From assembly GCF_963678975.1 (NCBI RefSeq), contig NC_089274.1, forward strand, positions 49,546,900 to 49,610,899: a stretch of 64,000 nucleotides of DNA, given 5' to 3'. Source of the stretch: Dysidea avara. Its lineage: Eukaryota > Porifera > Demospongiae > Dictyoceratida > Dysideidae. The position numbers and the translations under genes are program-made. Within the stretch, counting starts at the first letter, position 1. Each line of letters starts with the position of its first letter. Of this stretch, positions 16,401 to 44,869 are shown one piece after another. The notes under the pieces were generated by a model, which was not told where the DNA came from, ran no database searches, and saw nothing but the letters and a program-made list of their open reading frames with translations.

Positions 16401-19400
16401 GAAGCAAGAGGTAGACAGAGTCATTACCCTCTTGCCTAATGATAGGTCATGCACCAAGAAAGACTTTGAGTCTCTCGTTGGGAGATTAGCTCATGCCAGC
16501 CAGGTGGTTCAACCAGGTAAAACTTTTATGAGAAGCTTGTTTGAGCTTCTGGCCAGTCAGCGTCACTGCAAGCCTTGGCACCTTATTCGCCTGAATGTTG
16601 AAGCTCAGGCAGACCTCCTCTGGTGGAGCTCATTCATTGAGTCTTGGAATGACATTTCAATAATCCCAGGTGATGGGGAGGAGGTTTTCAGATCTGGTCT
16701 GATGCCTCTGGCTCGTGGGGTTGTGGTGCTGTATGCAGGGACACCTTGGAATGGCTATAGTTACCATGGTCAGAGGCAGCTACGGCCATAGGGGGATCCC
16801 TCATTCCGGGTGAGAGTATCACCTTTAAGGAACTGCTACCAGTGGTACTGGCTTGCTCCGTTTGGGGCTGTAAGTGGAGGGGCAACAGGGTTGTGTGTCA
16901 CTGCGACAATGCCGGGGCGGTTGTGGCAATCAATTTAGGGTACAGTCGGGTTGCCCCAATCATGCACCTTCTTAGGTGCCTGTTCTTCATCCAGGCCTTC
17001 TTCGAGTTTGAGGTAGAAGCAGTACCTGTTCCTGGGACATTAATGGGTGGGCGGATGCCATCTCACGTAACCATGCCCATTTATTTCTCTCACAGGTGCC
17101 AGGAGCAATTGGCCGCCAGTCTCTGGTTCCTCTGTGGCTGGTAGAACTTGTGCTGGACCTACAGCCTTCATCTGGATGCGACGGTTCAGGAGCTGTTTTC
17201 AGCAGGAGTAGCCAGTAACACGCAGAAGTCATACATGTCTGGCTCCAGGCGGTTTTCGAAATTTTGTAACACATTCACCATTTCCTCAGCATATCCTGTG
17301 AATGAGCAGACATTGTCCTGCTTTGTGGCTCACCTATTCAGCGATGGCCTCACCCCAGGGACAATCAAACACTACCTGGCAGCAGTTCGTCTCACCAAGA
17401 TTTCTCTTGGGTATGGGGACCGACAGATAGGTGGGATGGCTATACTGGAGTACATCATCAAAGGTGCCAAGCGTTCATCAGGGCAACAGCGTAGGTACCA
17501 TTTGCCTATCACTCCTGGGATCCTGGAGCGAGTCAAGAATGTGTGGCTGCATAGCCCCGATACCCGTGATACTGCTATGCTTTGGGCAGCCTTGTGCATG
17601 TGCTTCTTTGGCTTCTTGTGAGTAGGGTAGGCAGTAGTTCCAAGTGATTCAGGCTTTGATGCTATTGTTCACTTAGCCTATGGGGACGTCCAGGTTGACA
17701 ACTGGGTGCAGCCATCCTGTGTGGAAGTATACCTGAAAACTTCCAAGACGGATCCCTTTCGTCATGGTGTGTCGGTTTACCTTGGGCAGACTGACAGGGT
17801 GCTGTGCCCTGTAGCAGCTATTCTGGATTACACAGTCCGTCGGGGATCTGCCCCAGCCCCTTTCTTCACCTTCTCAGATGGCCGTTACCTCACCCGGGTA
17901 AGATTTGTGTCAGCAGTGAAAGCTGCATTGGAGGCAGCAGGTATCTCAGTGTCCCTCTACACTGGTCATAGCTTTAGGATTGGGATAGGCACCACAACGG
18001 CTCATGTGGGGATCCCTGACTCACTAATTCAAGTTCTCGGCTGGTAGGTCAGCTCGGCATACATATGCTACATCCAAACCCCAAGGGACAGGTTATGTGC
18101 TGTGACCAGAACACTGGCTGAGACTGGTTCTACTGGTTGAGACTGGTTCTACTGCTGAGACTGGTTCTACTGGTTGAGACTGGTTCTACTGGTTGAACTG
18201 TGTGTCTTAGAACTTGGTATATACTATTGTTTGCAGTTGTATTGCACACTAGCTAACTCATGTACGTCCTTTTGAATATAGTTGTCGTGTGAGTGTTATA
18301 GATTTTTTTTTTATTGATTTTTTTTCTCCTATGCTTGGGTGAGGGGTGATCTCCCATACTACAGCCCCCTCGCTGTTATCTCACCCAAGCTTGTCCTGGA
18401 GTTATAGCTAGCAAGCCAATAGTGACGCAGCACTAAGCCAACTGCATCGGGTAACAACCACCTATAGATTTTGAATGGTGAATGGATAGCCGGCCACCCA
18501 CAAACCAGGTGGCCCGTTCCCCTTATACAGCCCCACTACTCAGGCCATAACTAAGTAGTAGGCATCTTGGGGGGTGGCTACTTAGTGTATTGAACTCTGC
18601 TGGTCTTCAGTTAAAGAATGAAACAATACATTTTTGAGTAAATATATCAGAGATCGGTTATACGGTTATGAGAAAAAACTGATATCTGAATTTATGAAAA
18701 TAACCAGTCAATTAATCGGTTAACCGGTTAAGTTTCACAGCTCTAGCTTTAGCATCCTATAGTATATGTAAACCTCAGCTCAGATGAAGGTTACATAATG
18801 GCACATTGGCTACCATATCGCATCTTTCTTCATTTGGTACTTGGTGTGCTGAGACTAGCCCACACATGATGACTTTATTGGTTTAGTTGTGGCTTGACTG
18901 TTGCAGTAAATCATTTTGTAGTATCAAAACAAACAGAAAACATATGGTCACTTTCCTTGATAGAAGTTCTGTTTGTTTAGTGTATGTAGGTATGGCTGCT
19001 GTAGTTGTAGTGGCTGCTATAGTTGTAGTGGCTGCTGTAATTGTAATGGCTGCCAAACATTTGTGATTCCAAATAGCAGATCAGCATTGTGTGACTGGTT
19101 TTGTTATGTGCTGTTTAATTGCCACTAGATGTAATATTTGTTTCTTATCATTCTAATTAGCTACGTTCTGAAGGTTCCTTTTGAAGGATCAGGATCAGGG
19201 ATAGTGTATATCTGGATTGGGAGGTATGTGTGTATCTGCATGTTAGCCATATTGTATGACCAAACTACATTATTTGCTGCTACACCATCACTAGCTATAC
19301 TTTTACTCTACAATTTGTTAATTGTTCTTATAGCCAAGCAACTCAGGAGGAGGCCATCAATGCTGAGCAAATGGGTCGTAGCATGTTTGAGGTAGGCTCA

Positions 19401-22400
19401 GTCTACAAATTGTTGAGTTACGTATTTAAATCCTGTAGATGAGCTTCTCAAATCAAACTATCAAAGAAGGAGCAGAACCGGAGAATTTCTTCTGGGTTGC
19501 CTTGGGAAAACGTGAAGAATACGATAAGGTAATGAACAGTAAGTGGGAAAAACATGAATTTGTGGTTAAGAGCAAAAAATTTTCCCTCAAAAGTTACATG
19601 TTAGAGACATGACCTGGTAATGTGTGTTCATGGCCATGGTATATATATATATAGTGGTGAAGAATTGCTGAGCTTTCAAAGAAGTGATCCCTAATTTGCC
19701 ATGGTAGTGATTCAGAGTTTATAGTTAAGACCTTTCATTGGTGGTGATGTCCATTTTTAAAACTAATAATTGTTGAAGCATGACTATAGTGATATCATTC
19801 ACACTTGGTACACCTCAAGAGTGCTACAATCCAAGGGCAAGGATACAGTAATAGGCTAGCGTCGATTATGCTAGCATAATTTTTGGCATAATAGGGGATG
19901 AAAAACATAATTCTGGCATAATGAGGAACATAATGGGCAAATTTTCAGTCACAACGTCAATGGCTAACCTGTTTTGGATGGTGAATGATTCCTGATAATG
20001 AGTAGAAACAAAGCACTACTACAAGTTTACACCTCGTCAAAGTGAGTAGTTTTCATTGTGGGTTTGAGTTTTATAGGATGCATGCAGTCATGTGCCAACT
20101 AGCACCAAGGCATGGCAAAGTGGTTTAGCTGAGCTTCAATGCTATTATATAACACACCTCATTGTCTGATTTTGAATAAAACATGATATGGTTATGATTA
20201 TTGGAAGCTCGATTGGAAAACATACAATAAAAGCTCTGATGATAATAAGGTTAGTATTGAGTCAGATAGCTAGTAAATGTCTGGACATTGAAAATAGTGC
20301 ATGAGGTCTGGAGGTTAATATCAAACGGAAAGTATTTCAAAAAGATGGAGATTCTCTAATTGAACAGTCAAACACTCTAATAGAACAATCATCGCATGCA
20401 ACAGAGGGATTGAGAACCATTTAAGTGTTTGTCCCCAGTAGGCTAAGATGTTCTTGGCATGGTGATGCAAATACAATTTGCATATTATACTGAGCTGTGG
20501 CTGTCCTTTGAATACCAATTGCTACAACTCAGATGATCAGTCAGAAACGATGCTTAATATTTTATTTGCATACAAAACTACAAAAATAAAATGTATGTAG
20601 CTTCTGAGGGACTATACATATGCCCCCAGATCCCTTGCTCTAATATGCCTACAAACTCTGGAGCACATCCCAATTTCAAGCTATTGCTATTATTTGTATA
20701 TTATTGCAGTTGAAGTGACACTTCCCATTTACATTCTATCATATGAAGAACTTCTGTACACAAAGAAAAAACACAAAATAAAAGTATAATGCATTTCTGA
20801 AAAGCATGAAAACAAGCATAATAGGCAGAAAATTGAGAAATGCCACAAAGCATAATAGGCAAATTTTGGAGCATAATAGACTTCAATTTGGCACCTAGTT
20901 TGAACAAATTTAGTGTTGTATGGGTGATACATAAACAAAGGTCACTATTTTTGAGCATAAAATGAACTGTAGAGGATACCAAAGGTCAAATCTGTGATGG
21001 CTCCACATCTCAAAATACACTTCATGGTTGGTAGGTACTATGTGCAAAGTTTCATACTTTCTGTACAAAGTGCGCAATATTTTGCTATGCCGCTCTACTA
21101 CAAGCCTATACCGTAAAGCTGGTAATGTTTGAAGGGTTTTTATTTTCAGATGTTTCAAAGAGGTCCTTCTCTTCAACAAATAAATTCCCACATGTGAAAG
21201 CAACGATCTGACTTTCGGTGATTTGCTTGTGTATTCCTTGAGTTTTAGCTCAGAGACTCCCTCAGTCTTTTCTGCAGTGCACAGGGATAGGATTATTCCA
21301 TCAGTAAGTCAGTTTTTGGTAGTATATTGGCATGTTATCACCAATGCCAAAGTAGGAATTTTCCCACAGACTAGCTGCCATCATTTATACTTCTTGTTTC
21401 CATACTTAGAGCCCTATTTCATTTACAAGTTTTAATTGCACTACTTCATCGTTGTAGCATACACGAATGGTTGTGACTGCTTTATCAATCTCGTTGCTGA
21501 ACATATTAAAGGGCGTGGCCCATTGCTGTGTCTTGCTACAGGTTGCAGCTATGTCATTATGGTGGTAGCCACCCAGGCATGTTCTGATCATTTAAGGATG
21601 TGGTCCTATGCAACAATTTTGTAAGTGCAGCTGCTGCACGTATCTACTGCTGAAGTGCTCCAAATAGTTTTGTGACCTCCTTTAATTTAGGAGGGAACCC
21701 TACTACCGTACTGTTTGATAATGACACTCACTCCCTTTGTGACATATTAAGTCACACAGTTATCCTGGTCTATTTCAAGATTTTCTGTGTTGTTTTCATC
21801 ATGAGATTGTGACTTACTGTCCATCAGTGTCAGAAGGCAGTAATCAGCATCCATAAAATTTGATGACGTGTAACACAACAAGTGGGAACTGTTGACTTAT
21901 GCTAAGCTGCACTGTGTGAGTAGCTAATTTGTTTGCAAGCTTATTAACTGGAACTGGAGTAGCAAAATGTTATTAATTGTCTCCTATGATGTAACACAGC
22001 TTGTGATAACTATTTTAGCTAACTAATTATTGATTTTCCAGACAGCCATTAATGTTATCATGGCATCATAATTTGTAAACAATTTTATCCCATCACATAA
22101 AATTGTTTATACTATGATAATAATGACACAACATTATGTCATTGCTAATATTATGTGTATCATCAACATGTACATGATGATGTGTATACTGTGGTATCCT
22201 TGCCAACCACATATTTACAAGATTCTGGTGACCAACAATAATCTTAATTTATTTATTTTGCCCACAAGTGTATCATGCTATAAGTTGTATCAAATTATTC
22301 TAATGTGGTTATGTGATAAACCACATGTATATACCGTCCAACTACATGATCATGAATATCTCAACATTGTGAAAATGAAATGGTTTGATGTTAGCATGAT

Positions 22401-23006
22401 TTTTATGAAGATAGAAAAATTTACAAGCTTATCACTGTTTATCATTTTGTATTTAGTTACTTATTACTTATTTATAGGAGGCAACCTTCCTGCGCTATAC
22501 CAGGTTGTTTCGTTGCTCCAACAGTAAAGGGTTTTTTTCAGTTGAAGAAGAATGCCAAGACTTCTGCCAGGTGGGCAGCACATTAATTAAGAGTGCATGA
22601 GATAGTTAGCTATGTCATGTGTTCTTGATGTCATGATGATAACTTCTCCAAACTTGTAGGACTCATTGTCTGAAGATGATGTAATGTTGTTGGACACTGG
22701 AAATGAAGTGAGCTAGCTTGCTATTTGTTAGTATAACAATGGAATATTTCTTTTAAAGGTTTTCATTTGGGTTGGCTCAGTTGCTAGTGATGTAGTAAAG
22801 AAACTTAGCTTAAAAAGTGCCCAAGTAAGTTGCTATATGGAGACCACTTCTATGTCACGTACTGCTTACATCATCTCTAGGTGTATATCAAACATTTAGC
22901 TGATCATCCTAATCAACCACCAAGGAAGATACGAGTAGCCAAACATGGTTCTGAGCCACGTGAATTTAAGCGATGTTTTCATGGCTGGTCATCATCATCA
23001 TCATAA
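905..23006 (+). CDS. Flightless-1 homologue, 3' part (22 exons)
   Basis: Actin-binding gelsolin-family protein; flightless-1 proteins have N-terminal leucine-rich repeats plus six gelsolin-like repeats, bind actin, and act in cytoskeletal and transcriptional regulation. Exons read: 905-1086, 1919-1947, 1994-2060, 3558-3617, 3673-3769, 4214-4301, 4349-4462, 9023-9134, 9184-9240, 9302-9467, 11220-11290, 11339-11382, 11437-11497, 12716-12772, 12815-12942, 19161-19223, 19334-19391, 19439-19528, 22478-22570, 22660-22707, 22759-22824, 22881-23006 (TAA 23004-23006). All junctions are GT-AG and all phases join, giving about 624 residues. Landmarks match the animal FLII family from repeat 2 to the C terminus: [92 protein letters not shown]. 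The leucine-rich-repeat half is upstream of the window. The link between exons 5 and 6 is about 15 residues shorter than in vertebrates, so a small exon in 3770-4213 could be missed. No AATAAA was seen just after the stop. Confidence 0.95.
1119..1559. mobile_element. MITE with 7-bp duplications, copy A (FLII intron 1)
   Basis: Element of 441 bp with inverted ends CAAGAGTTCATA / TATGAACTCTTG; the inverted repeat extends about 90 bp inward (ACTGAGGAGAGTATCCTACT, CCTGTAGAAGGGCGTAT). CTCCAAA flanks it at 1112-1118 and 1560-1566, a 7-bp target duplication. Copy B at 6936-7395 is in the opposite orientation, and a broken copy ends at 5815. No coding region is seen. A 7-bp duplication is uncommon; the superfamily is unassigned. 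Confidence 0.9.
2260..2470. mobile_element. Possible short MITE with TATCCGAA-type ends
   Basis: The left part reads GGGCGCTCGGTTATCCGAAC and the right part TTTCGGATAAACGAGGGTC, an imperfect inverted pair. The interior carries the ACTCTAATAGAACAGTC motif seen elsewhere in the window. Boundaries and target duplication are unclear. It lies in the FLII intron 2061-3557. Confidence 0.4.
2489..2680. repeat. About 91-bp tandem duplication
   Basis: Two units and a start of a third share GGTGTCCTGATTTCAGG, TCTAAATGTGTGTACACTAA and ATGGACAAGTGTCC. The same GTGTCCT word is scattered over 2500-2730. It is intronic in FLII, and nothing suggests coding. Confidence 0.75.
3150..3441. mobile_element. CGGATCC-family MITE with 5-bp duplication, copy 1
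   Basis: Element of 292 bp with ends CAGGGGCGGACCCAG and CTGGATCCGCCACTG; homopolymeric G runs lie just inside both ends. TATTG flanks it at 3145-3149 and 3442-3446. Related copies: 45435-45902, 62829-63119 and a fragment at 40515. The interior has the GAGTATCTTGATCTTGTATG and CTGCTCTATTAGAGTATC words shared with the copy at 62829. It lies in a FLII intron about 115 bp before exon 4. Confidence 0.8.
3470..3555. repeat. 15-bp tandem repeat abutting a splice acceptor
   Basis: More than five perfect units of ATTACATCATTGTTT run right up to the AG (3556-3557) of FLII exon 4. The repeat therefore makes up the whole region where the polypyrimidine tract would lie. The acceptor itself reads ACATCATAG. 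Confidence 0.9.
4905..4957. repeat. 17-bp tandem repeat
   Basis: Three units of GACATCACTGGTGGAT in the FLII intron 4463-9022. The remainder of 4463-5700 shows no gene or obvious element. Confidence 0.8.
5710..5815. mobile_element. Truncated copy of the 7-bp-duplication MITE
   Basis: Matches one end of the elements at 1119 and 6936 (ACGTCACAAACC, then ATACGCCCTTCTACAGGGG and ACTCTCCTTAGTATATA) and stops exactly where the element at 5816 begins, so that element or a rearrangement cut it. Confidence 0.75.
6936..7395. mobile_element. MITE with 7-bp duplications, copy B
   Basis: Element of 460 bp with ends CAAGAGTTCATA / TATGAACTCTTG and flanking GTATTAC at 6929-6935 and 7396-7402. The interior (TTCCTTCATGGGTTAAGACC and flanking sequence) is the reverse complement of the interior at 1119-1559. 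It is nested in the hAT-like element 5816-8875, so it is younger than that element. Confidence 0.9.
7606..8129. mobile_element. MITE with CAGGAGCTTATGAGC ends and 7-bp duplication
   Basis: Element of 524 bp with ends CAGGAGCTTATGAGC / GCTCATAAGCTCCTG. The inverted repeat continues inward (GAAGGAGCATGAAAC, then GGTGCCATCACAATCCAAAT). ATAAAAA flanks it at 7599-7605 and 8130-8136. It is a different sequence family from the CAAGAGTTC elements but leaves the same duplication length. Nested in 5816-8875; no gene. Confidence 0.88.
9023..9467 (+). CDS. FLII exons 8-10: linker and start of repeat 4
   Basis: Exon 8 (9023-9134) completes the G codon split at 4462 and encodes [16 protein letters not shown] followed by a lysine-rich linker. 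Exon 9 (9184-9240) encodes [14 protein letters not shown], a hallmark of the linker between the two gelsolin halves. Exon 10 (9302-9467) encodes the start of repeat 4 with [20 protein letters not shown] and [13 protein letters not shown]. The frame stays open to 9545, but the protein family resumes only at exon 11, and GTCAGT at 9468 serves as donor. Introns here are 49 and 61 bp. Confidence 0.94.
9735..11162. mobile_element. 1.4-kb foldback element in FLII intron 10
   Basis: Two arms of about 160 bp (9735-9900 and 10984-11162) are inverted copies: CACTGGACTGGACT, TTTTTGCACATTATATGG and GCCTGCAGCCCACT in the left arm recur in reverse in the right arm. Inner segments (10330-10365 and 10670-10715, ATATTTCAGTAATTGTT) are also inverted, so the element folds as a long hairpin. 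Between them lies a 20-bp satellite. A smaller palindrome (TAGTCT...AGACTA, about 10828-10936) is nested in it. A clear target duplication was not found. Confidence 0.8.
10001..10316. repeat. 20-bp satellite, about 16 units
   Basis: Uninterrupted units AAGAGTATATAATAGTAACC with two variable positions (AATAG/GATAG and AACC/ATCC). One further partial unit is inverted near 10740-10760. It has no spacers, so it is not CRISPR. Long reading frames across it are open only because the unit lacks stops in those frames. Confidence 0.95.
11220..11497 (+). CDS. FLII exons 11-13: acidic loop and end of repeat 4
   Basis: Exon 11 (11220-11290) encodes an acidic stretch of Glu and about eight Asp followed by HTVVYFWQ. 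The acidic insertion inside repeat 4 is a known feature of FLII proteins. Exon 12 (11339-11382) encodes [14 protein letters not shown]. Exon 13 (11437-11497) encodes [20 protein letters not shown]. The introns are 48 and 54 bp. Phases join exactly with exon 10 upstream and exon 14 downstream. Confidence 0.94.
12395..12472. repeat. (ATAC)n microsatellite
   Basis: About 19 copies of a 4-bp unit in the 1.2-kb FLII intron 11498-12715. Nothing else in that intron is recognisable. Confidence 0.95.
12716..12942 (+). CDS. FLII exons 14-15: start of repeat 5
   Basis: Exon 14 (12716-12772) encodes [19 protein letters not shown], the conserved stretch after repeat 4. Exon 15 (12815-12942) encodes [24 protein letters not shown] and ends in a split Cys codon (TG then C at 19161). 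The 42-bp intron between them is the shortest seen in this gene. The next intron (12943-19160) is 6.2 kb because of nested transposons. Confidence 0.94.
13726..15078 (+). pseudogene. DIRS-type retrotransposon Gag, frameshifted
   Basis: The frame starts [17 protein letters not shown] and continues as a Gln/Ser/Leu-rich N terminus to about 14030. After roughly 500 bp without recognisable coding, the family resemblance resumes at 14541 ([20 protein letters not shown]), shifts frame near 14625, and goes on as [13 protein letters not shown] and a CX2CX4HX4C zinc knuckle ([14 protein letters not shown]). A second Cys/His cluster follows near 14930-15010 ([15 protein letters not shown], then HPAIVC). 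These features fit the nucleic-acid-binding Gag of DIRS-like elements. The 14030-14540 stretch could be an intron or an insertion. Confidence 0.75.
15440..15479. mobile_element. 40-bp palindromic insertion with 9-bp duplication
   Basis: A near-perfect palindrome (ATAGATAGTATATTCTACGT and its inverse) is flanked by GGTTTGTCC at 15431-15439 and 15480-15488. It sits inside the DIRS element, between Gag and reverse transcriptase. This is the structure of a minimal foldback insertion. Confidence 0.75.
15640..17110 (+). pseudogene. DIRS-type reverse transcriptase and RNase H, decayed
   Basis: Reverse-transcriptase landmarks in order: [27 protein letters not shown], then after a frameshift/deletion near 15950 [28 protein letters not shown] followed by an in-frame TAG at 16120, [11 protein letters not shown] (catalytic YLDD) and LTFLGFEVE. 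The RNase H part follows: [15 protein letters not shown], then [15 protein letters not shown] and [14 protein letters not shown]. At least one deletion, two frameshifts and several stops make it nonfunctional. RT plus RNase H followed by a tyrosine recombinase is the DIRS order. Confidence 0.88.
17148..18110 (+). pseudogene. DIRS-type tyrosine recombinase, decayed
   Basis: Integrase-like recombinase that would insert the element's DNA without target duplication. N-terminal part: [18 protein letters not shown] and [19 protein letters not shown]; the core continues [14 protein letters not shown], where a TGA replaces the Arg codon expected in the family's catalytic F-L-R motif. The second half ([16 protein letters not shown]) carries the H-x-x-R pair in YTGHSFRIG and, after a TAG, the Tyr region [11 protein letters not shown]. 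Thus the R-H-R-Y catalytic set is recognisable but interrupted by stops. Confidence 0.88.
18118..18197. repeat. 18-bp tandem repeat after the recombinase
   Basis: About four and a half units of GAGACTGGTTCTACTGGTT with small length variation. It lies at the 3' end of the DIRS element; 18200-18590 beyond it has a hairpin (GCTTGGGTGAG ... CTCACCCAAGC, about 18334-18391) and no gene. Confidence 0.85.
19161..19528 (+). CDS. FLII exons 16-18: rest of repeat 5
   Basis: Exon 16 (19161-19223) encodes [20 protein letters not shown]. Exon 17 (19334-19391) encodes the helix [19 protein letters not shown]. Exon 18 (19439-19528) encodes [20 protein letters not shown] and then GKREEYDK. All three sit in the order and phase expected for FLII repeat 5 and the linker to repeat 6. 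Splicing over the 6.2 kb transposon-filled intron restores the Cys codon split between 12942 and 19161. Confidence 0.94.
19855..20900. repeat. GCATAATAGG-word clusters in FLII intron 18
   Basis: Two clusters (19855-19945 and 20805-20890) are rich in GGCATAAT/GCATAATAGG words, with GGGCAAATTTT and GGCAAATTTTGG in each. They may be the two ends of a decayed element; a further fragment is at 27455-27490. No coding sequence was recognised in 19529-22477. Confidence 0.4.
22478..23006 (+). CDS. FLII exons 19-22: repeat 6 and C terminus
   Basis: Exon 19 (22478-22570) encodes [20 protein letters not shown] and ends CQDFCQ. Exon 20 (22660-22707) encodes [16 protein letters not shown], exon 21 (22759-22824) [20 protein letters not shown], and exon 22 (22881-23006) [19 protein letters not shown] and the KRCFHGW end. 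The protein finishes with five Ser codons (TCA repeat) and TAA, instead of the short hydrophobic tail of vertebrate FLII. The intron before exon 19 is 2.9 kb. Confidence 0.94.
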
Positions 23007-23420
23007 CACCAATCCTGTATATTAATCCTGTACACTGCATGCGTATTATAACAAGTGATCAACATGTCTGTTTATTAGTGTGAACAGTTGCCTTGTAAAA
23101 GGAATGCACACAAGTGCTTAAACTATAACTAATGATTGTGTCTACATGCATTTGGTGGTATTCATGTGAATTTAGTTAGTTTCCTTGCATGCAGCTACAC
23201 TGACAGTGTTCTGTAAGAAGTGATCAATGAAGGGTGTGGTATGAGATATCTAATGACTATATTTTATAGTTATAACACACTTACAAGGAATATGATAAAA
23301 ATACACACTCACATATAATTTTGTCATATCCCGAGTAATTGTATTATAACTGTTATATTGTAGATGAAACAATTATAGATAGTAAGTTGTAGTGAAACAG
23401 CACCTGTTAAGTAAACATCC

Positions 23421-23710
23421 TTGATGACATCCTTCATGGATCAAACGCTTTAGATTCTTTAGCGGTGCCATGCCCATCTACTTGTGATTGGTGAAGGAGA
23501 CAAGAGTTCATCAAAAATCCTTTTTCAGTGCTTAGGTGAATGGTTCTAGGCACTTGTCAGTATTAGAGACTTGCAAATCCTTGATGGATCAGACATTTTA
23601 GACTCTAGCAGTGCCACGCCCATCTACTCGCAATTATTGAAGGAGACAGAGCTCATTGAAAATTGCTCAGGTTAATAATTGTTGGTTGATTTAGGCTTTT
23701 GTTATTAGAG
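23421..23710. repeat. About 146-bp direct tandem duplication
   Basis: Two consecutive units share ATCCTTGATGGATCA-like starts, TTTAGACTCTAGCAGTGCCA and GCCCATCTACT, at roughly 80-85% identity by eye, so this is an old duplication. Confidence 0.8.
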
Positions 23711-23959
23711 ACTTGTTTACTGTTTAGATAAGGATTTCGCAGAATGTGTGAAGTTACACCATATATGGTAAGCGTAGCCACAAAGCATAGTATATCAGTT
23801 ATATACCACAGCGTCACATGTGTGATATATATACCGGTATACTACCTACAATAGTGTCATGGTATCAGACAGGTATAGATTGCCATGTAAATTATCCCAT
23901 ATGGCAAACAGCTTATCAATTTGCTATATGATAGCTTGCTTTAGTACTACATTATATTA

Positions 23960-24268
23960 GACCACTCCAGTTGGTATACTGGTTTCTGGTCCCCCGCCCA
24001 CATCAAAAATCTTTAGATTAGTCATTACTGCTATTATTATGATTTTGCTGCTTATTACACATGTGCAGCATACTCTACACATGTGCAGCATACTCTACAC
24101 ATGTGCAGCATACTCTGCTTAATGTCTATCTTGCTTATATTGGCACATGTTGCATTGCTTTCTGGTAGTGATTTTAACAGTATGATAACATAATGACAAA
24201 TTCTCCCGCCCACATGCCCCCTTCAAAGTGAACAGGACCAGAAACTGGTATAGCAATTGGAGTGGCCT
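23960..24268. mobile_element. MITE with 33-bp inverted repeats
   Basis: The ends GACCACTCCAGTTGGTATAC and CTGGTTTCTGGTCC are mirrored at 24230-24268 (GGACCAGAAACTGGTATAGC ... GGAGTGGCC). The interior includes CCCGCCCACAT on both sides and three 20-bp tandem units ACACATGTGCAGCATACTCT (24057-24116). Confidence 0.8.
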
Positions 24269-25009
24269 TATAATGTTTCAGTTGTTTGCTAATGACAAGA
24301 GCTAATTTATATGCGATTTGTATTCTACATGTGTTCAATAATATCATGCTGCACAGTTCACTCAAGGATGAGGAATCATATGCACTGTTAAAAACACTTT
24401 GTTCCTGTGGGTGTGTAGCTATTACAGTAAGTGTTCACTCCCTTACAACCAAGAGCTTTTATTATTTACTCTTGTTATGACTAATTGAATGATAACTCAA
24501 TACACTGGACATACATAATGATGAGATTATAGCATAAATAAACTGGTATACTCTTGCTAATAGTATCCATTGCTCAGATTGTCTGTGTTAGCTGTTAGAT
24601 AATGGCCTAACCATGGAACACCACATTCTGAACACAGCTCACCATCATTCTAGTTTTGTTGCCTATTATATAAAAGTGAACTGAATCATTGCATGAGGAG
24701 TGATTGTGATTTGAGACAGTATGTCCTAACACCTGATAACTGCATACAAAACTAACCTGCAGGACACCTTGTATGGTGTCCTCATTTTCAAATGTCCTGA
24801 TTAACAGCAGGTTTAGTGAAGACTTACAACTCAGCTAATTGGTCTGGGTGTGGCTTAATGTGCTTGGTAGGGGATGATATTGTAATGCTGGGCTCAAACT
24901 AGTTAAAGAGCTATATAGAATGTGTCCAAAAAACATTACTAATGTTATTGCTAACATTAGGCACTGAATTGTTGAGCAGAAGTTCGTGTGAAAACAATAA
25001 TGGAACGAC

Positions 25010-27154
25010 TAGAACATACGTAGGAGATACTTGGTTTGTTCCCTTATCGAGGATCGCCTTGGAATTGAGAATATGTCATACCAGCTATGAGGTTGGCTAG
25101 AGACGAGAAAGACAGAAATGACAGTATTTTATCTGAATAATTATGTGTTGGAGTTGATAGAAGCTAACTCAGGTTGTGATTGTGATCGTAGAGTCCGTGA
25201 GTTTGTGAGGAATGCTCTGCACAGCACACACCAACCAGTGGCTGTTTTAGGCACTGGTTGTTCTATAGCTCTACCATCCCCATTGTATCCATTGCTGGAA
25301 GAGATGATATTCACCTTCCACAATTGTCCTATGGAGCAACCTTACTGTTTGTGTCACTCACTACTTCATTTCCCTATTTCAATCGAACAGTACCAACTGA
25401 TGTATCTACTTCTGAAGAAATAATCAGTTAAGAAGTTTAAATGGAAATGTTATGTCATACATAAGTGGTACATCTAATCAAATATTGAGTGAATATGCGA
25501 TCACTACTCTACGTGTTGGTAGCTAAGTCATATTCCAGACTCCAAGGAAGTGTACTTCAGTGGTACCAACCATGATACTAGCTTTGAAGATCAAAGTACA
25601 TTTAGAGAAGAGCTTCATTGTGCTGGCATGTGAGTAGGTATGATGTACACTGGGGTCAATGGAATGGTTGATGAAATGATGTGTTATTTGTATCATCACA
25701 AACTGACTTATCCATATTTCATCTGGATACTTTCTAACAATGCCGGGAATTGGTGACTGCAACAGATGACTGCTGTTGAGGAAATACAACTAGCCACACA
25801 TGAAATTATTCATTTTGGTTATCCACTAGCAATGATGATGATGTGTTGGGTGTTACTAATAAAACATTTAAACAATGAATACTATCAATCCTATATTGAA
25901 GAATCTCAAAATATATATGCTACTGAGAGAGACAATTACAGCTCATCACTACTGACTACAATTGCGTACGACACAATGTGGACATTGGGTCTGGTATTGC
26001 ACAGTGCTAAGGAAAATTATCCCTATTCAATTCCAGTTTAGCTGATTTCTCATTAGGAAATGACAGCATTTCTGGAGAAATATTAGAAGAGCTAATTAGC
26101 TAAGATTAATTTTGCAGGTGCTTTTGGGAAAATCTCATTTGATGAAGCAGACAAATGTCTCCTTACTATAACAATCCATCAAGTACAAAATGGAACACTT
26201 AGGTCTTTAATCTCCTTCAAGTAATAGCTCAGTGTTGGGTGAACTAGTTCTTAATGAGAATAAGTTATTGTGGTCTATAGACAATCCACCACCAGATGTG
26301 TTCACAACAGGCATACTATTGGCTCAAAATTGGGCTGGTGGTGTATTAATGTTGGTGTTTTTAATAGTAGGATTTGTGTGGAATAATTTCTCCATATTAA
26401 TCAACTTGAACATTTTTATATACCATCAAAGCATCAAGCCCTCAACTCAATTACATGATATTTGCTGGTAATAACTTACTACTGTTAAGTGGAGTACTAC
26501 TTGCAATTAGAGCAATAGTAGAACATGACATGGTGACATTCTCTAGTCTATGCCTGATAACACAATGGCTGTTTGATCTTGGACTGTTACTAGTTCTCAA
26601 TACAACATTATTGAAGAGTTGGAGGATTTACCGAATATTTCACTCTTTCAGACAAAAGCCTGGAAAGTTGATTACAGACAATGCTTTTATCATTGCCTCC
26701 ATTAGTTGGATATTAATCAACACAACTTATCACATTGTGTTTGCACTTGTTAATAAGAGTAACATTGTGAAGGAAAAGTTACTGCCTGTAGAAGAAAATG
26801 AACTTAGTAGTAGTATATTGTCTATCATCTGATCTGATTGGATTATTCTATATTCCACATATTGTGATGGCTGTCACTTTGTGCTTGTTGGCCTTCTTGA
26901 TTCGTCAAGTCCACCACAAACAATTTAATGATGCTAAAAACGTTGCATTGTTTTTCTACACAACTATACCAATAGCTACAATCTGTTTAACTTTATCAGC
27001 TTTGCTTTCTCCAGTAAATGATATTTACAACCTGGCAACAGTGTCATTAATACTGGACTGTACTGCTGTTTGCTGTGTTGTCTTCATGTGTCAGTTGACT
27101 CTGTTTGTACCAAAAATGTTACCACTTTTTAGACATTTGTACTGCCACAGATAG
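25010..27154 (+). pseudogene. GABA-B-like receptor pseudogene
   Basis: Broken intronless copy of the receptor at 42590-44869, in opposite orientation. It begins near GGAACGACTAGAACATACG, matching the segment just after the signal peptide; no start codon or signal peptide is seen. The ligand-binding half (25010-26420) is riddled with frameshifts, deletions and stops, with recognisable blocks YVLELIEANSGCD, NYSSSLL and WTLGLVLH. From about 26425 the seven-helix half is almost identical to the intact gene (MIFAGNNLLLLSGVLLAIRA, then SWRIYRIFHSFRQKPGKLIT), with one 8-nt deletion near 26809 that shifts the frame before VVYCLSSDLIGLFYIPHIVM. It ends FRHLYCHR and TAG at 27152-27154. The intact gene has a longer tail. 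Confidence 0.92.
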
Positions 27155-28521
27155 CATGAATTCACATGTCACACTAAATTCACTAAATTTTAAGAACAGA
27201 TTAAATATGTCATGGTTGGCCACTTTGCCTCAAAGATTAATTGCATTAATTAGCAATTATTATGTAATCCATTAGTACTCAAAAATTGTTATGGATTAGT
27301 GAGAATGTTGGCCCACATATGGAAAAAGTTGTTACTGGTGCAACTGTGACAAGCCATGTGAGATTATGGAGGTATTCAGAATAATAGAAGGGTTGGATTA
27401 GAGAGGTTTCACTGTATTTTAGTCTAGACAGGTCAAGGTCATTGAACATCTGCTTAAAAGCATAATAGATTGAGCATAAAAGGCTGGCACCTAACCCAGC
27501 CACATTTAGGACACAATTTTTTGACTTTAATAAGCATACAGGTACTTGCTTTCCTATAGATGGTAACGTATGGGAAAACTTTCATGAATGGCACTACAGT
27601 ATGGTGACACTCTATAGTATGGTGACACTCTATAGTATGGTGAATGGTGACAGTCTACAGTATGGTGACAGTCTATAGTACTTGCAGCATATTCCAAATG
27701 TTGTCACTGCTGCTGCTTGCACCTTGCAAATGCTGCTGTAGCATAGTAATATTCACCTGCAATCTAGCTGTGTTGATGTGTTCCACTAGCAAACTATATA
27801 GTTGGTGTTCCACTAGCAAACTAGCTGATGTTCCACTTGCAAACTGGCTGATATTTCAGAATTGAATTAAGGTTAGCTATGATGCTATACATAGCTATGG
27901 TGAATGTAGCTTTGTTATAGCATAGTACTTAGTGCTAGCCTGTAGTATCACCGGCCTGCCTGCAAACTGATGACAAACATTTTTCAGACAGTCGAAACCA
28001 TTGCAACTCCCTATGTCTGCCATTGATATCCATCTGCGTTCCAGACATCCAGTCTGAGCCATTTGGTCTCCTGTATACTAGCAACTGCCATGTTAACTCC
28101 TTAACCAAAAAATCCAATTTCCTAACAGCATAGTGAGTGAGGGCCTATGGTAGGTAGATGGGAAACTTTGGGATTTGGTCTCACCCTGCAGATTCTTTTA
28201 TCATCTTCAGCACTCTCCATTTGTACCTCTCCATTTGTACCTCTCCATTAGGGTGCAAATAACAAATGAGATGGACCCAGAACAGCACCCTGAAAAGCCA
28301 TACTCATGCAAAAAATATACAACACAATTAACATCAAGTTGCAAGTTTGAGCAAATAAACCACCTTAAAGTTGTTCCTGTGGAAGAACTTTTCTTTGGAA
28401 GGGCAATTTCACCAGGTATTTACGCATTTTCAAGGCAATGTTCCCTGACAACCTAGACCCACTAGTCATTTATCCAGGGTTTGTCCTGAGGATACTGCAA
28501 TTATTTTCGTATGGCTACAGG

Positions 28522-28565
<44 letters not shown>

Positions 28566-28880
28566 CGTGTGTGCATGCGTGCGTGTGTGCGATGATTCAT
28601 CAATGTAGTTTGCCGTGAGGCAGAAGGACATCACTTTATGGTGTATGGTGGTCTGCTGGTTCAGGTTTACGTACATGTGTGTGTATGTGTGTGTGTGTGC
28701 AATGCATGCATGGGAATCATATAATTTGCATATCAGCACTTGGCTCTTGGGCAGCACCGTATATTGCTGGTGAACACTGACAGCCATGGTTTGAACATGT
28801 GGAGTAGATCAGTTTGAAAAGTGGAGGGTCTCAGGCTTCCACAATCCAGATGCTGTCTGTCACAAAACAGTGACTTAATT
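27155..28880. other. Intergenic, simple repeats
   Basis: No gene recognised. It contains 18-bp tandem units TATGGTGACACTCTATAG (27597-27681), repeated TTCCACTAGCAAACTAGCTG words (27780-27850), and GT-rich stretches at 28521-28590 and 28675-28700 that border the LINE. Confidence 0.6.
28521..28590. repeat. (GT)n microsatellite
   Basis: About 20 GT dinucleotides followed by GCGTGCGT variants. It lies on the 3' side of the minus-strand LINE and may be that element's simple-repeat tail. Confidence 0.95.
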
Positions 28881-31800
28881 AATGTCTTGCTAGATATCCA
28901 GAATGCTCCACATGTACAAGTAAAAATATAGGTTAGAGAGGGCCTGTTAGTAGCACAAACCTCCCCAACATCAACAGATAAACAGATCTGTACACAAATT
29001 GTTGTGCCCATCTTTTGCAATCTTCCTCAATCCCAAGTGTCCTTAAATCATCCATCACTGCCAGATCTCTCCATTGTTTCTTAGGGCCATGTCTTGAGCG
29101 GGTTTTAATCAGCTCAGCAAAAAATAGCTGCTTAGATATCCTATAATTGTCCATCTGTGCCAAATGCCTTAACCATGTACCGGCTACATTGATATCCCCC
29201 AATAATATCAGCCGTGTGCTCATTCATTCCAAACTGACTAGCTAGCTCCTTAAATGTTATTCTTTCCTTCCATTGCCTTGTTCTTGACACACCCAAAATT
29301 ACTCGATACAGTGATTGTGAAAGCCTTCTAAACATCTAATGCTATAGGGCTCTTCACCATCCATGCTTCTGATCCATACAATAAAGTAGACACCACCACA
29401 GCATGATACATACCTCTCTTAGTCTGCACATTAAGAGCCCGGTTATCAAAGATGGAGGATCACAAACATCCAAATGCTCAAGTATCCTTGCCCAACTTAC
29501 TTATCTCATTGACAACCTCACCATCATTTCTGATGTTACTTCCAAGATAAGTAAAATTGTCCACTGCAGCTATAACACCATCCTCCAACTCTATTCTCTT
29601 CAGGGCACCCCATTCTAAACTAACAGTAGCTAAGTCCCCATCCTCCTGCTGTTATTACAAAGGTCACAGCTATTTTTCCACCGCTTGTTAAGTGACTGCA
29701 TACAATGCTACATCATCAGCAAACATAGACTCTGTATGATCCATTTTCCCGAGCCTTGCTTTGGCTGTTCGGTCTCCCACCAGCTTTCTTCCTATCTTAT
29801 ACCTCACAGTAACCTAGCTCAACCCCCAGACAGTGATTCTTCCAACTGCTGAAAAATACAACTTGACCAAAACTGGTGCCATGTTACACCCTTGTCTCTA
29901 ATATTAATATCACCAGTGGTGCCATCACTCTCACCACAGCAGTCATGCCATTATGACACGACCTGATCAGTGACAACATCACTGCATGGAGGAACACTTC
30001 TGCAATACCTGCCACAAGGTCTCTCTAGATACTGAATCGTATGCCTTGCAGAGGTCAACAAAGAGCGTAAATAGAGTCATTGTGTTCTTTGCTCTTCTCA
30101 AATAGCTTCCTAGCTGTAAAAATTATATCTACACACACCCTTCCCTTATGGAAGCCATACTGAAACTCATGAAGGACCTTCTTGGTGATCAACTGAAGCC
30201 TATCTGTCCAAACAACTTCCCAACCACATCTAATAAATTGATTCCTCTGCAGTTATCACAATTCCTAAAATCCTTTTTCTTAGGTATCTTCCAGTCCTGA
30301 ACCACACATCCCACCTTCCATGTGCACACCTCCCTCATTAACATGCATAATTCTGGGTCTCCACAAAGTATCGATTCAGGTAAGATACCAGTCCTCCCTC
30401 CAGCCTTCCCCTATTTTATTTTCTCCATAGCAGCTACCAGTTCATTAGAGGTAGAAGACATTCTCAAAGACATTGCATCGTTTCCCATGACAGCATTAAT
30501 TCCTGATCACACTTCAGGTCCTGTAATTAAGTTACCATTTGGCTTCCAAAGTCTGACTGAGCAGGCCAGCAACCTTTTAATGCAATCAGTTTCCCATCTT
30601 GATTATGCTCAGCATCACTAATCACCCCACAGCCCTTTTCACCAACCCCTGGCATAATTGGAACTCACACATCAGAAAACTCTGCAACTGCAAATACCTT
30701 TGACAAACTCTAGCCTTGTCATCCAGTAGAGGATCAGAATTAGTATATCAGTAGCATCAATAAGTTAATCTGGCTGCTTCTTTCTAACATGTCCAACAGC
30801 TGCATCAGCAAATGCCTTGTACACTATTTTAAATGCCTGCCACTGTAAAGAAGGCTTTTAATTTACATTTCCGATTAATGTCTATGAAACTTCTACTCTT
30901 CCTAAAGCCACACTGTGATTCTGGTTGTACATCTTCAGCCAACTTCTGTAATCTTTCTTGTATAACTCCAGTTCCCAACTATACATCTAACAAACAAACA
31001 CCTCTCCAGTTGTCATGGTTAGTAATGTCACCCTTAGTAGGAATAGGAATCAATATAGCATCCCGCCGGTCATTTGGGATGTACATGACCCTCTCTCCAC
31101 ACATCATGTACTAGCTCAAGCAATCTGTTTAAAAATTCACACTGACTACTCAACATCTCTGGTAGTATACTTGATTCACCATTAGCCTTTCCATTACTGA
31201 TGCTAGAGTTCCTCCGTTTCAGTTCTGTGGCTCACTTCACTGACCTAGTTCATCGACAGAAAACTCGCTTTGAATATGATCTTGGTGAAGTTCCTCCTCC
31301 ATCTCCCTTGCTGCTCTTCATTGGAAGAACACACATTTCCCTTCACCATACTGGGACCATACCTTTTCTACCCCATTGAATATCTCTAATACACCTCCAT
31401 AATACTTTACCATTGTGTCTCGGCTTCTTTACCCTTACTCAAAAGTCAAAAACCATTCCTCCTTATGGCTCTTCATGCATCACTACAAGCAACAACAAAC
31501 TTATGCTTATCTCTCTTCTCACTTATGCTCAGCCACAAACTATACAATTTGTTCTTTTCTCAATTAATGGTCTGATCTTTGTAATCCCAAAATCAATTAG
31601 GCTGTCTTCTGAATATCATAAATCTGCTCTAGTCACTTCATGTAATGAACCTCTCAAAGTACTTCAATTTTCTTGAATGGTACCACCATCATCATTCCAT
31701 TCTGTCCCTAACAACTCACTGTCATCTACTGTCACCAAATATCTGCCTTAACTGTCAACTCTCCTTGTTCATCTACACTTTCACCTCAAAGACTTGCACT

Positions 31801-32510: not shown

Positions 32511-32782
32511 TGCAAAAATGATGTTTTAGATTCAGAATCTCTAACTGCATTAAATGATGGCTCACCCTGAGAGGGGTGCAACACCTCTGCAGGGGAGCAG
32601 TCTTGGTATAATGAGAGTGATTCCATCAGTCGGCACCCTGTACTCAAAACTCCAAGACTGTAAATCAGTTTTAGCCAGTTCACACTAAAACTGTGTATGA
32701 ACTGCCCAGGGGTCACCGCAGTGAAAATGTAGCCTTTATATAGACTGACCCCCACAGTCAACAGTTGCTATAGTGTATGCAT

Positions 32783-32793
32783 GCACGCACACA

Positions 32794-32865
<72 letters not shown>

Positions 32866-32881
32866 TGCACACACACACACA
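32783..32881. repeat. (ACGC)n microsatellite
   Basis: About 20 units of a 4-bp repeat ending in a CA run, just upstream of the LINE 5' side. The region 32882-33380 beyond it has no recognised gene; AATAAATAAATAAATTATTATT at 33290-33315 could be a retroposon tail. Confidence 0.95.
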
Positions 32882-33442
32882 CTACAATAAACAGCATGCA
32901 GTAACATATCCATGCTATGCATGAAGTGAAATAAAATAACACTTATAAAAATAATTGAAAGATAAACTAATTAGACACCTCATCTAGCTTGCACTGTATA
33001 TACATCATTTATAAGGTATGTACACATGTGGGGCTACGACATTGCTGTTTGGTGTTAATGTTGTTTCTATATATATAACTTTATCTCTCACACCGCACAG
33101 AATGCATGCAGGTCAAAGAAGTGACCATCTGTCCAATCTCGTATTGTAGCACTAGCAACTGTTATTAACACCATGTAATGCTCCAGTTGAGCTCAATACC
33201 CAGTATAATTACTTCAAATACTTTTACTAAAGCAAGAATATTTGATCATCAAGAGTATGACATCACCACCTGTACAGGCCTAACTGGTAAAGAATAAATA
33301 AATAAATTATTATTATTATAGTCTCATGCATAACTTGCATGTCAACACTGTTCTTTAAGCTAATAAAGCATTTCAGATACTTTACCAGTACACATCATAT
33401 AAAGCTGTATTGGAATTTATTAATTCGCTTATTGCAGCAAAT

Positions 33443-35868: not shown

Positions 35869-36860
35869 AGCTTCATAAATTGTTGTGGTTTTGTTTCTCC
35901 TGCTTTTAGGAGGTTTCTCTCCGAGGTTCTCTCATGAATTTGATTGCTCTACTTTGATATTCAAAGTGCAGAAGTACATATAGACTAAATTTTATAGTTA
36001 GCTGTACTGCATACTTTATATGTAATGTGGTTCAGTTAGGTGGTTAATCAGCTTCATAAGTTGTTGTGGGTTTGTTCCTCCTGCTTTTAGGAGGTTTCCC
36101 TCCTGAGGTTTCTCTCATGAATTTGATTGATCTACACTTGTTATTTAAAGAGTGGAAGTATAGACTTTTTCTAGCTAGCTGCACTGCAAACACAACTTTA
36201 GGTAACTTTATATGTAATGTAATTCAGTTAGGTGGTTAATCAGCTTCATAAGTTGTTGTGGTTTTGTTCCTCCTGGGTTTCCCTCCTGCTTTTAGGAGGT
36301 TTCTCTCATGAATTTGATTGATCTACACTTGTTATTTAAAGAGTGGAAGTATAGACCTTTTCTATAGTATGTTCACGTTGAGCTGAATCCTGAAAAACAG
36401 CTAAAAGTTAAAAGTGGATTTTTTCTCAACATAGTTAACATTTCAGCCAACCAGATGATTATTGGTAACAGCAAAGGTGTCAACAACAGACATGTACAGT
36501 TTGGCTCCATTACAAGTTCGGGAAACAGCTGTAATGGACACTGTACTTATATGGCTTCCCCATAGGAAATGTATTGTGAAAATTTTGATTGGCCGTAAAT
36601 ATTATGTCAAACATTTGAACAAAAAGATTTCAAAATATTTTTAGCGGATCAAGCAGTACTACAAATGAGCCAAATTTCAAGATCATGTGTAATTGCATCC
36701 ATGAGTTATTAAATGCTTTTGAGGATTCAGCTCAACGTGAACGTACTATAGCTAGCTGCACTGCAAACACAACTTGTAGTTCAGTTAGGTGGTTTATCAG
36801 ATTCATAAGTTGTCGTGGTTTTGTTCCTCCTACTTTTAGGGGGCTTCTTATCTGTTGTAA
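35869..36860. repeat. About 185-bp tandem repeat, four units, one split by a MITE
   Basis: Units start near 35869, 36050, 36243 and 36799 with AGCTTCATAAGTTGTTGTGG and carry CCTCCTGCTTTTAGGAGG (a small hairpin), TCTCATGAATTTGATTG and AGCTAGCTGCACTGCAAACA. The third unit is interrupted by the MITE at 36365-36748, and the intact second unit shows the empty site. Similar GGTTTCCCTCC words recur at 38125-38200. Confidence 0.85.
36365..36748. mobile_element. TA-flanked MITE, copy 2
   Basis: 384-bp copy of the element at 91-473, same orientation, with inverted ends TAGTATGTTCACGTTGAGCT / GAACGTACTA. Comparison with the neighbouring tandem unit (TTTTTCTAGCTAGCTGC) shows the uninserted site and confirms that only a TA was duplicated. 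Confidence 0.92.
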
Positions 36861-42589: not shown

Positions 42590-44869
42590 TTAATTTAATA
42601 ATAAACTTTGAGAGTACAATTGTCTAAAAAGTGGTAACATTTTTGGTACAAACAGAGTCAACTGACACATGAAGACAACACAGCAAACAGCAGTACAGTC
42701 CAGTATTAATGACACTGTTGCCAGGTTGTAAATACCATTTACTGGAGAAAGCAAAGCTGATAAAGTTAAACAGATTGTAGCTATTGGTATAGTTGTGTAG
42801 AAAAACAATCCAACGTTTTTAGCATCATTAAATTGTTTGTGGTGGACTTGACGAATCAAGAAGGCCAACAAGCACAAAGTGACAGCCATCACAATATGTG
42901 GAATATAGAATAATCCAATCAGATCAGATGGTAGACAATATACTACTACCTTTTGACTAAGTTCATCGTCTTCTACAGGCAGTAACTTTTCCTTTACAAT
43001 GTTAGTCTTATTAACAAGTGCAAACACAATGTGATAAGTTGTGTTGATTAATATCCAACTAATGGAGGCAATGATAAAAGCATTGTCTGTAATCAACTTT
43101 CCAGGCTTTTGTCTAAAAGAGTGAAATATCCGGTAAATCCTCCAACTCTTCAATAATGTTGTATTGAGAACTAGTAACAGTCCAAGATCAAACAGCCATT
43201 GTGTTATCTGGCATAGAGTAGAGAATGTCACCATATCGTGTTCTACTATTGCTCTAATTGCAAGTAGTACTCCACTTAACAGTAGTAAATTATTACCAGC
43301 AAATATCATGTAATTGAGTTGAGGGCTTGATGCTTTGATTGTGTAGAACTGTTGATAACGGAAGTTGACCAGCATTGAGAAACTGTTCCACACAAATCCT
43401 ACTACTAAAAATAGCAACATCAGTATACCAGCCCATGTCTGAGCTAACATCGTTTCTGTAGGGAACTCATCTGGGGGAGGATCATCAAGCGACCACAACA
43501 ACATTGTTTTATAAACAGACAAATTTCCCTGCTCTGAACCATTGATTGGAGGATGATACAGACCAATTGTATTAAGGACTCCAGATCTTTGGGGCTGAAT
43601 AAATTTTATAGTGAGTTGTCTTTTATGTGCCTCATCAAACAAGACTTGTCCAGAAGCACCTGCGAAAGAAACATCACCTAATCCTTCTACTATTGTTCCA
43701 GAAATAGCTGAATTTCCTAATGTGAAGTTACTAGCGAAACTTAAATTAAATTGGGACAGTCTTTCTTCAGCTTTGTGCAGTGCCAGACCCAATGTCCACA
43801 TGGAATCATAACCAAGTGTGGCCCAATCATTCAGCAGTGACGAGCTATAATTGTCTTTTTTCTCCTCAGCATATTTTATTGATTCATTAACATAGGACTC
43901 ATAGTATTGATCAAATGTTTTGCCAGTGACACTGATGGTATTGTCAGAGGTAGTCAGTTTGTAGCCCAGACAAATACTTCCTTCTATTGCTTGTTGAAAT
44001 TCATCATTACCTTTGCAATATTCACCTACTGATCTGTTGAACAAGACACATACATCATAGAGTATCCATATGATATGAGGGTATACAAGCTTTTGACGGT
44101 AAAGGTAACACATCAAATCACGACCTACTTCCCTACCAGCTGCCAGTATACCAATTCTCATACCAGATGAACGGATATCATTTAGATCAATGAATTGGAC
44201 ATCTCCGGGCTGTCCAATACTACCAGTGAACACCTCTTCTGCACCATCAATGCGGTACTGGATACCAGCTCGTAGGGTAGACACAGAATGTTCTATCCAA
44301 GTTTCGTCAAATCCAACTCTGAGTAGACCATAACGTTTCCAGTTGAATGTATCAAGCAAGGAAATTATTGCTTCAGAAGTAGTTCCATCGCTATACACTG
44401 CTCGATAGAAGTAAGGATATGAGCTGGTGAGCGATAAAAAAGGTGAGGTTGCTCCGTAGGACACTTGCGGAAGGCGAACATCGTCTCTTCCAGCAATGGA
44501 GGCAATAGCAATTGTAGAACTAGAACAAGCTGCTCCTAGAATGGCCACTGGTTTGTGTGCACTGTGCAGAGCATAACTCACAAACTCGCGGACTCCACGA
44601 TCACGATCACAACCTGAGTTAGCTTCTATCAACTCCAACACATATCCAGGTAAAATACTGTCATTTCTGTTTATTTCGTCTATAGCCAACCTCGCAGCTG
44701 GTATGACATATTCTCCGTTCCAAGGTGACTCTCGATCAGGGAACAAACCAAGTATTTGTAATGGAGTAACTCCATTAGTCCTTATTTCTCGTTCATCAGC
44801 ACTGGTACACTGCGCAAGCACAGTAGCAACCATGACTAATTTACCAACTAGACGGTTTAGTAGACTCAT
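42590..44869 (-). CDS. GABA-B-like family C GPCR, intact, single exon
   Basis: 759-residue seven-helix receptor of the GABA-B branch of family C; such receptors bind small amino-acid-like ligands in a periplasmic-binding-like domain and signal through G proteins at the plasma membrane. Residues 1-24 look like a signal peptide; the ligand-binding domain runs about 33-430 (LQILGLFPDRESPWNGEYVI, LELIEANSGCDRDRGVREFV, AILGAACSSSTIAIASIAGR). No Cys-rich domain follows, as in GABA-B receptors. Seven helices lie about 478-740 (first AGILMLLFLVVGFVWNSFSM, loop SWRIYRIFHSFRQKPGKLIT, last ending LFVPKMLPLF, the family C x-PK motif). The tail is only about 17 residues, without the coiled coil or ER-retention region of vertebrate GABA-B1/B2. 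The ATG at 44869 precedes the hydrophobic stretch directly. There are no introns, unlike FLII in the same window. The ligand is unknown. Confidence 0.94.
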   Translation of the reverse strand: MSLLNRLVGKLVMVATVLAQCTSADEREIRTNGVTPLQILGLFPDRESPWNGEYVIPAARLAIDEINRNDSILPGYVLELIEANSGCDRDRGVREFVSYALHSAHKPVAILGAACSSSTIAIASIAGRDDVRLPQVSYGATSPFLSLTSSYPYFYRAVYSDGTTSEAIISLLDTFNWKRYGLLRVGFDETWIEHSVSTLRAGIQYRIDGAEEVFTGSIGQPGDVQFIDLNDIRSSGMRIGILAAGREVGRDLMCYLYRQKLVYPHIIWILYDVCVLFNRSVGEYCKGNDEFQQAIEGSICLGYKLTTSDNTISVTGKTFDQYYESYVNESIKYAEEKKDNYSSSLLNDWATLGYDSMWTLGLALHKAEERLSQFNLSFASNFTLGNSAISGTIVEGLGDVSFAGASGQVLFDEAHKRQLTIKFIQPQRSGVLNTIGLYHPPINGSEQGNLSVYKTMLLWSLDDPPPDEFPTETMLAQTWAGILMLLFLVVGFVWNSFSMLVNFRYQQFYTIKASSPQLNYMIFAGNNLLLLSGVLLAIRAIVEHDMVTFSTLCQITQWLFDLGLLLVLNTTLLKSWRIYRIFHSFRQKPGKLITDNAFIIASISWILINTTYHIVFALVNKTNIVKEKLLPVEDDELSQKVVVYCLPSDLIGLFYIPHIVMAVTLCLLAFLIRQVHHKQFNDAKNVGLFFYTTIPIATICLTLSALLSPVNGIYNLATVSLILDCTAVCCVVFMCQLTLFVPKMLPLFRQLYSQSLLLN

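Follow-up and report, generated by a model that had tools for sequence, protein, structure and literature searches.

The receptor gene and its broken inverted copy

The window, which here means the whole 64-kb stretch of DNA that was analysed, comes from the sponge Dysidea avara (contig NC_089274.1, positions 49,546,900 to 49,610,899 of the forward strand), and positions are counted from its first base. It holds an intact receptor gene and a broken copy of this gene in inverted orientation. The copy was divided into three blocks (A, B, and C) by divergence from the gene, and the features are as follows.

42590..44869, minus strand: intact single-ORF gene for a GABA-B-like class C receptor, likely donor (Pfam and PDB matches)
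25027..27143, plus strand: broken inverted copy of the gene at 42590, gene bases 115-2257 (blastn, alignment, flank search)
25027..25242, plus strand: block A, intermediate divergence, possible older conversion tract (alignment, BIC blocks)
25243..26424, plus strand: block B, decayed and apparently unconverted ligand-binding part (alignment, BIC blocks)
26425..27142, plus strand: block C, putative recent conversion tract, most of the seven-transmembrane part (alignments, Pfam domain limits)
42614..43339, minus strand: part of the intact gene that corresponds to block C, gene bases 1531-2256 (alignment; overlaps inverted-repeat arms I1 and I2)

The intact gene consists of a single ORF with 759 codons and a stop, encoding a protein of 759 amino acids. 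Two Pfam domains were found above the Pfam cut-off, ANF_receptor at residues 57-422 (9.4e-38) and 7tm_3 at residues 480-743 (4e-26). The top matches in a PDB search were GABA-B receptor subunits (8.3e-49). By these matches, the gene is predicted to encode a GABA-B-like class C receptor with a ligand-binding and a class C seven-transmembrane domain. Searches for relatives covered microbial and viral collections, and they say little on animal relatives; in these collections there were no confirmed relatives of the whole protein (six pattern matches in microbial genome contigs and four in viral contigs) or of its transmembrane part (24 pattern matches in microbial genome contigs).

Significant homology of the broken copy by blastn and alignment spans 25027-27143, so the originally predicted span of 25010-27154 was too wide. 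The predicted inverted orientation and spacing of about 15 kb were right, and the nearest arms are separated by 15,455 bases. Sequences flanking the gene (2 kb upstream with the first 150 bases, and the last 51 bases with 2 kb downstream) were searched against 22000-29500. The only significant matches were the known ends (36 and 28 bases); six further flank matches had E values of 0.013 to 0.57, and no significant homology extended past either end of the copy. The length of the duplication is not readable from this result, as noncoding flanks are hard to recognise at block B rates of divergence. The end of homology close to both limits of the ORF raised the question of a retrocopy origin. Inspection by eye showed no long poly-A run after 27143. 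As the intact gene itself consists of a single ORF, a retrocopy and a DNA duplicate cannot be told apart, and the conversion finding does not need an answer to this question.

Other features were observed in the window. An ORF at 16156-16791 (plus strand) has a weak match to RVT_1 (5.7e-4), and an ORF at 17148-17621 (plus strand) has a weak match to Phage_int_SAM_4, a phage-integrase-type N-terminal domain (6.6e-5), both below the Pfam cut-off. The region 16156-17621 is possibly the remains of a tyrosine-recombinase retrotransposon. Tandem arrays are located at 10000-10308 (20-base unit, 15.4 copies, 95% matches) and at 35869-36364 (direct repeats of a roughly 192-base unit, 2.7 copies, 80% matches). 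Four-base units make up two further arrays, at 28526-28589 and 32779-32882 (consensus TGTG and GCAC), which form an inverted-repeat pair at 81-87%.

The change in divergence at 26425

Global alignment of the broken copy (plus strand) with the reverse complement of 42590-44869 gave 2,035 aligned columns from 25027-27142. The best change point is window position 26425 (gene base 1531), with a log-likelihood gain of 109, while none of 500 shuffles of 30-base blocks reached this gain (largest 36). A sharp boundary near 26425 had been predicted, and the change point was exactly 26425 in all eight alignments; five of these came from different pairwise scoring schemes and three from MAFFT modes, and they are not independent in that the MAFFT runs were identical. 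Divergence is 24.6% to the left of this base (324/1317) and 2.1% to the right (15/719). Uniform divergence along the copy was therefore not found, as the break is beyond chance. The earlier figure of about 3 differences in 200 over 26940-27140 is exact (differing codons start at 26945, 27020, and 27134). The figure of one base in five for the ligand-binding half was sound as an approximation to the actual 24.6%, but it does not describe a uniform half, which has parts diverged by 10.4% and 27.3%.

By BIC, three blocks fit best (1621.4, compared to 1638.2 for two, 1632.7 for four, and 1640.9 for five). Block A has 22 substitutions in 212 positions (10.4%) and one indel. The split between A and B within the left part has a gain of 16.0, which none of 500 shuffles of 15-base blocks reached (largest 10.0). 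Its boundary is soft, at 25243 in three of the eight alignments and at 25343 in the other five. Block B has 302 substitutions in 1105 positions (27.3%) and 41 indels, 32 of them frame-breaking; these indel counts vary with gap costs across the eight alignments, from 18 to 64 in total and from 12 to 54 frame-breaking.

Block C has 15 substitutions in 718 positions and a single indel in every alignment, an 8-base deletion after 26806. Its 3' limit is the end of recognisable homology, near the stop codon. Nine of the 15 substitutions are replacements, and six are synonymous. BIC did not support a finer split of this block. The first half (26425-26780) has six synonymous and three replacement differences, and the second half (26781-27142) has none and six (Fisher p=0.03, post hoc); the first half becomes 7:3 if the neighbouring difference at 26424, which lies outside the block, is counted. 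The two halves perhaps reflect two events or two templates.

A misjoin in the assembly also gives a sharp boundary, and block C could then be an artefact filled from reads of the intact gene or its other allele. The window is without any N, however, and register is kept across the 26425 junction, except for two indels, of 7 and 2 bases, immediately ahead of the junction. Block C also is not identical to the gene, and its nine replacements among 15 substitutions and its 8-base frameshift are unlike an allele of a working receptor. An assembly artefact is therefore improbable.

Silent sites, decay of the copy, and direction of the probable conversion

Transmembrane parts are usually under more constraint than ligand-binding parts. 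Selection on a protein, antisense, or RNA function could thus slow change in the transmembrane half with no conversion involved. Silent sites contradict this explanation. Among the fourfold-degenerate sites of the intact gene, 2/99 differ in block C and 61/173 in block B (p=5e-12), while 2/29 differ in block A (A compared to B, p=0.002). Nei-Gojobori dS is 0.04 over gene bases 1528-2256, 0.13 over 115-270, and 0.57 to 0.70 in three pieces of 271-1527. The fourfold contrast between C and B indicates that protein constraint is not the cause of the divergence mosaic. Block C of the broken copy also carries a frameshift, and the rate jumps at one base, so selection is a highly implausible explanation. 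The original prediction argued that one age cannot yield both divergences, and this was borne out by the fourfold counts in adjacent blocks of one copy. The gene conversion between inverted paralogues that it proposed is supported, and it is the best account of the mosaic.

Indels per aligned base differ between block B (41/1105) and block C (1/719) by a ratio of 27 (95% CI 4.5-1079). Frame-breaking indels number 32 in B and one in C (12 and one in the least-gapped alignment). Six in-register stops are present in the broken copy, one in block A, five in block B, and none in block C. Relative to block B (41:302), indels per substitution are no different in block C (1:15, p=0.71) or block A (1:22, p=0.50), as a shorter period of decay in block C would predict. 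When one lineage is neutral and the other constrained, the ratio of distances at codon positions 1+2 to position 3 is reckoned at 0.5-0.6, and the ratio of JC distances in block B is 0.58. Together, this ratio and the indels and stops of block B indicate that the copy is long dead. The indel contrast between B and C further indicates that block C acquired its present form from an intact template, at a time when the copy had long been broken.

Block A may be an earlier conversion tract that has partly decayed since. It has fewer frame-breaking indels than block B, a marginal difference (p=0.049). Compared to block C, fourfold sites show no significant difference (2/29 vs 2/99, p=0.22), which counts against block A as a separate, older tract, and only codon positions 1+2 differ (15/142 vs 7/479 sites, p=5e-6).

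Direction of conversion, which the original prediction left open, can be argued in this case from the recipient's own state and without an outgroup, which makes it a clean natural case. The most likely direction, judging from the indels and from three sites in one remote protein, is from an intact template into the dead copy. Nine amino acid differences in block C were compared with GABA-B receptor subunit 2 (7c7q_B). Three are informative, and all three match the intact gene; by eye, T551 and G687 are well aligned with this single remote protein, and D635 is in a poorly aligned loop. Five of the remaining six match neither copy, and residue 750 is outside the 7c7q_B alignment. These residue matches lend weak support to the direction. 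Were the direction reversed, the working gene would have been overwritten by the pseudogene, or by the pseudogene's 3' half at a time when that half was intact, and no close outgroup fixes the polarity. However, the copy is full of frame-breaking indels in block B and the 3' half of the intact gene is open, so the donor half would need to have escaped decay; the informative residues also agree with the intact gene. We give this reversed history very little credence.

A replacement would leave no second 3' half behind. When the intact protein was searched against the 64-kb window (tblastn, to E=10), no second remnant of the transmembrane half was found. The sole extra match (17 residues, 10924-10974, E=4.1) is attributable to chance. 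This search did find block B, so it should also have revealed a remnant decayed to the same degree. The window shows no sign of an old, displaced 3' half, which favours replacement over insertion.

The proposed history therefore begins with an old duplication, in inverted orientation, of a GABA-B-like receptor gene. The duplicate would have been dead for most of its life, gathering substitutions and frame-breaking indels. Later, homologous repair on an intact template would have overwritten the 3' part of the duplicate (26425-27142), with break repair or template switching as possible routes; the simplest candidate for the template is the gene about 15.4 kb away. Block A would probably be an earlier tract, partly decayed. 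Divergence since the block C event is about 4-6% of that of block B. Close linkage is reported to favour conversion (PMC3924832; PMC2720389). From the observed mosaic and boundary and the silent-site and indel contrasts, we infer the process, its direction, and its donor: gene conversion of an already dead copy by an intact template, most simply the neighbour gene at 42590, is the probable explanation. Conversion is a well-known process, and the present case is clear but ordinary.

Probable donor of the putative tract and relation to other paralogues

An identity of about 92% has been proposed for efficient homologous recombination or conversion (PMC3966225). Block B suggests that the copies were about 73% alike before the event, if block C had decayed in the same way. 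This is well under the proposed value, so a single event from 73% is less likely than earlier conversions or a third, closer copy. It seems more likely either that earlier conversions, of which block A is possibly one, kept the copy convertible or that such a third copy took part.

The donor could therefore be a third receptor paralogue that shares a recent origin with the gene at 42590, acting by the same process. Receptors of this kind can occur in large numbers and in clusters; the demosponge Ephydatia muelleri is reported to have >120 metabotropic GABA receptors, with over 50 in one cluster (PMC7385117). A third paralogue would also ease the identity problem, and the six synonymous to three replacement differences at 26425-26780 resemble divergence between working genes (binomial p=0.006, post hoc), although the whole tract (6/15 synonymous) gives p=0.10. 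On the other hand, tblastn found no such paralogue in the 64-kb window, a difference of 2.1% appears low for another family member, and the neighbour at 42590 suffices as donor. A third-paralogue donor is unlikely, yet the size of the family in E. muelleri means that it should be taken seriously, and it deserves more weight than an assembly artefact. A closer paralogue elsewhere would change the donor and not conversion itself.

Exchange between paralogues has been described in other systems. In human CD177/CD177P1 (PMC4882059), as here, a block of one paralogue is replaced by the homologous block of the other. In that system, exon 7 of the gene comes from the pseudogene and expression is lost, whereas here the intact copy appears to overwrite a dead one, which is probably harmless. 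BMP8A/BMP8B (PMC2720389) likewise form an inverted pair of paralogues on a single chromosome and share blocks of very high identity. Both of those are reported to be genes; they lie about 235 kb apart and have exchanged sequence over a long time, while the present pair has one dead copy and a spacing of about 15.4 kb. The metabotropic GABA receptors of E. muelleri are GABA-B-like, as is the receptor here, and many of them are clustered (PMC7385117). Among the matches listed for literature on gene conversion in sponge paralogs, no title or abstract opening concerned conversion in sponge receptors, which is no proof of absence.

Dating this pseudogene by its 3' half, or placing it in a receptor tree by that half, would give a wrong answer. 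A broader and rather doubtful idea is that conversion acts by domain, with the transmembrane half repeatedly homogenised among copies, including dead ones, and the ligand-binding half free to diverge. If this is true, each receptor would combine a signalling half that stays fixed with a sensing half that is free to evolve. Should this family prove to be the large GABA-B-like family of sponges, the present locus would justify looking for domain-wise conversion in the clusters of that family.
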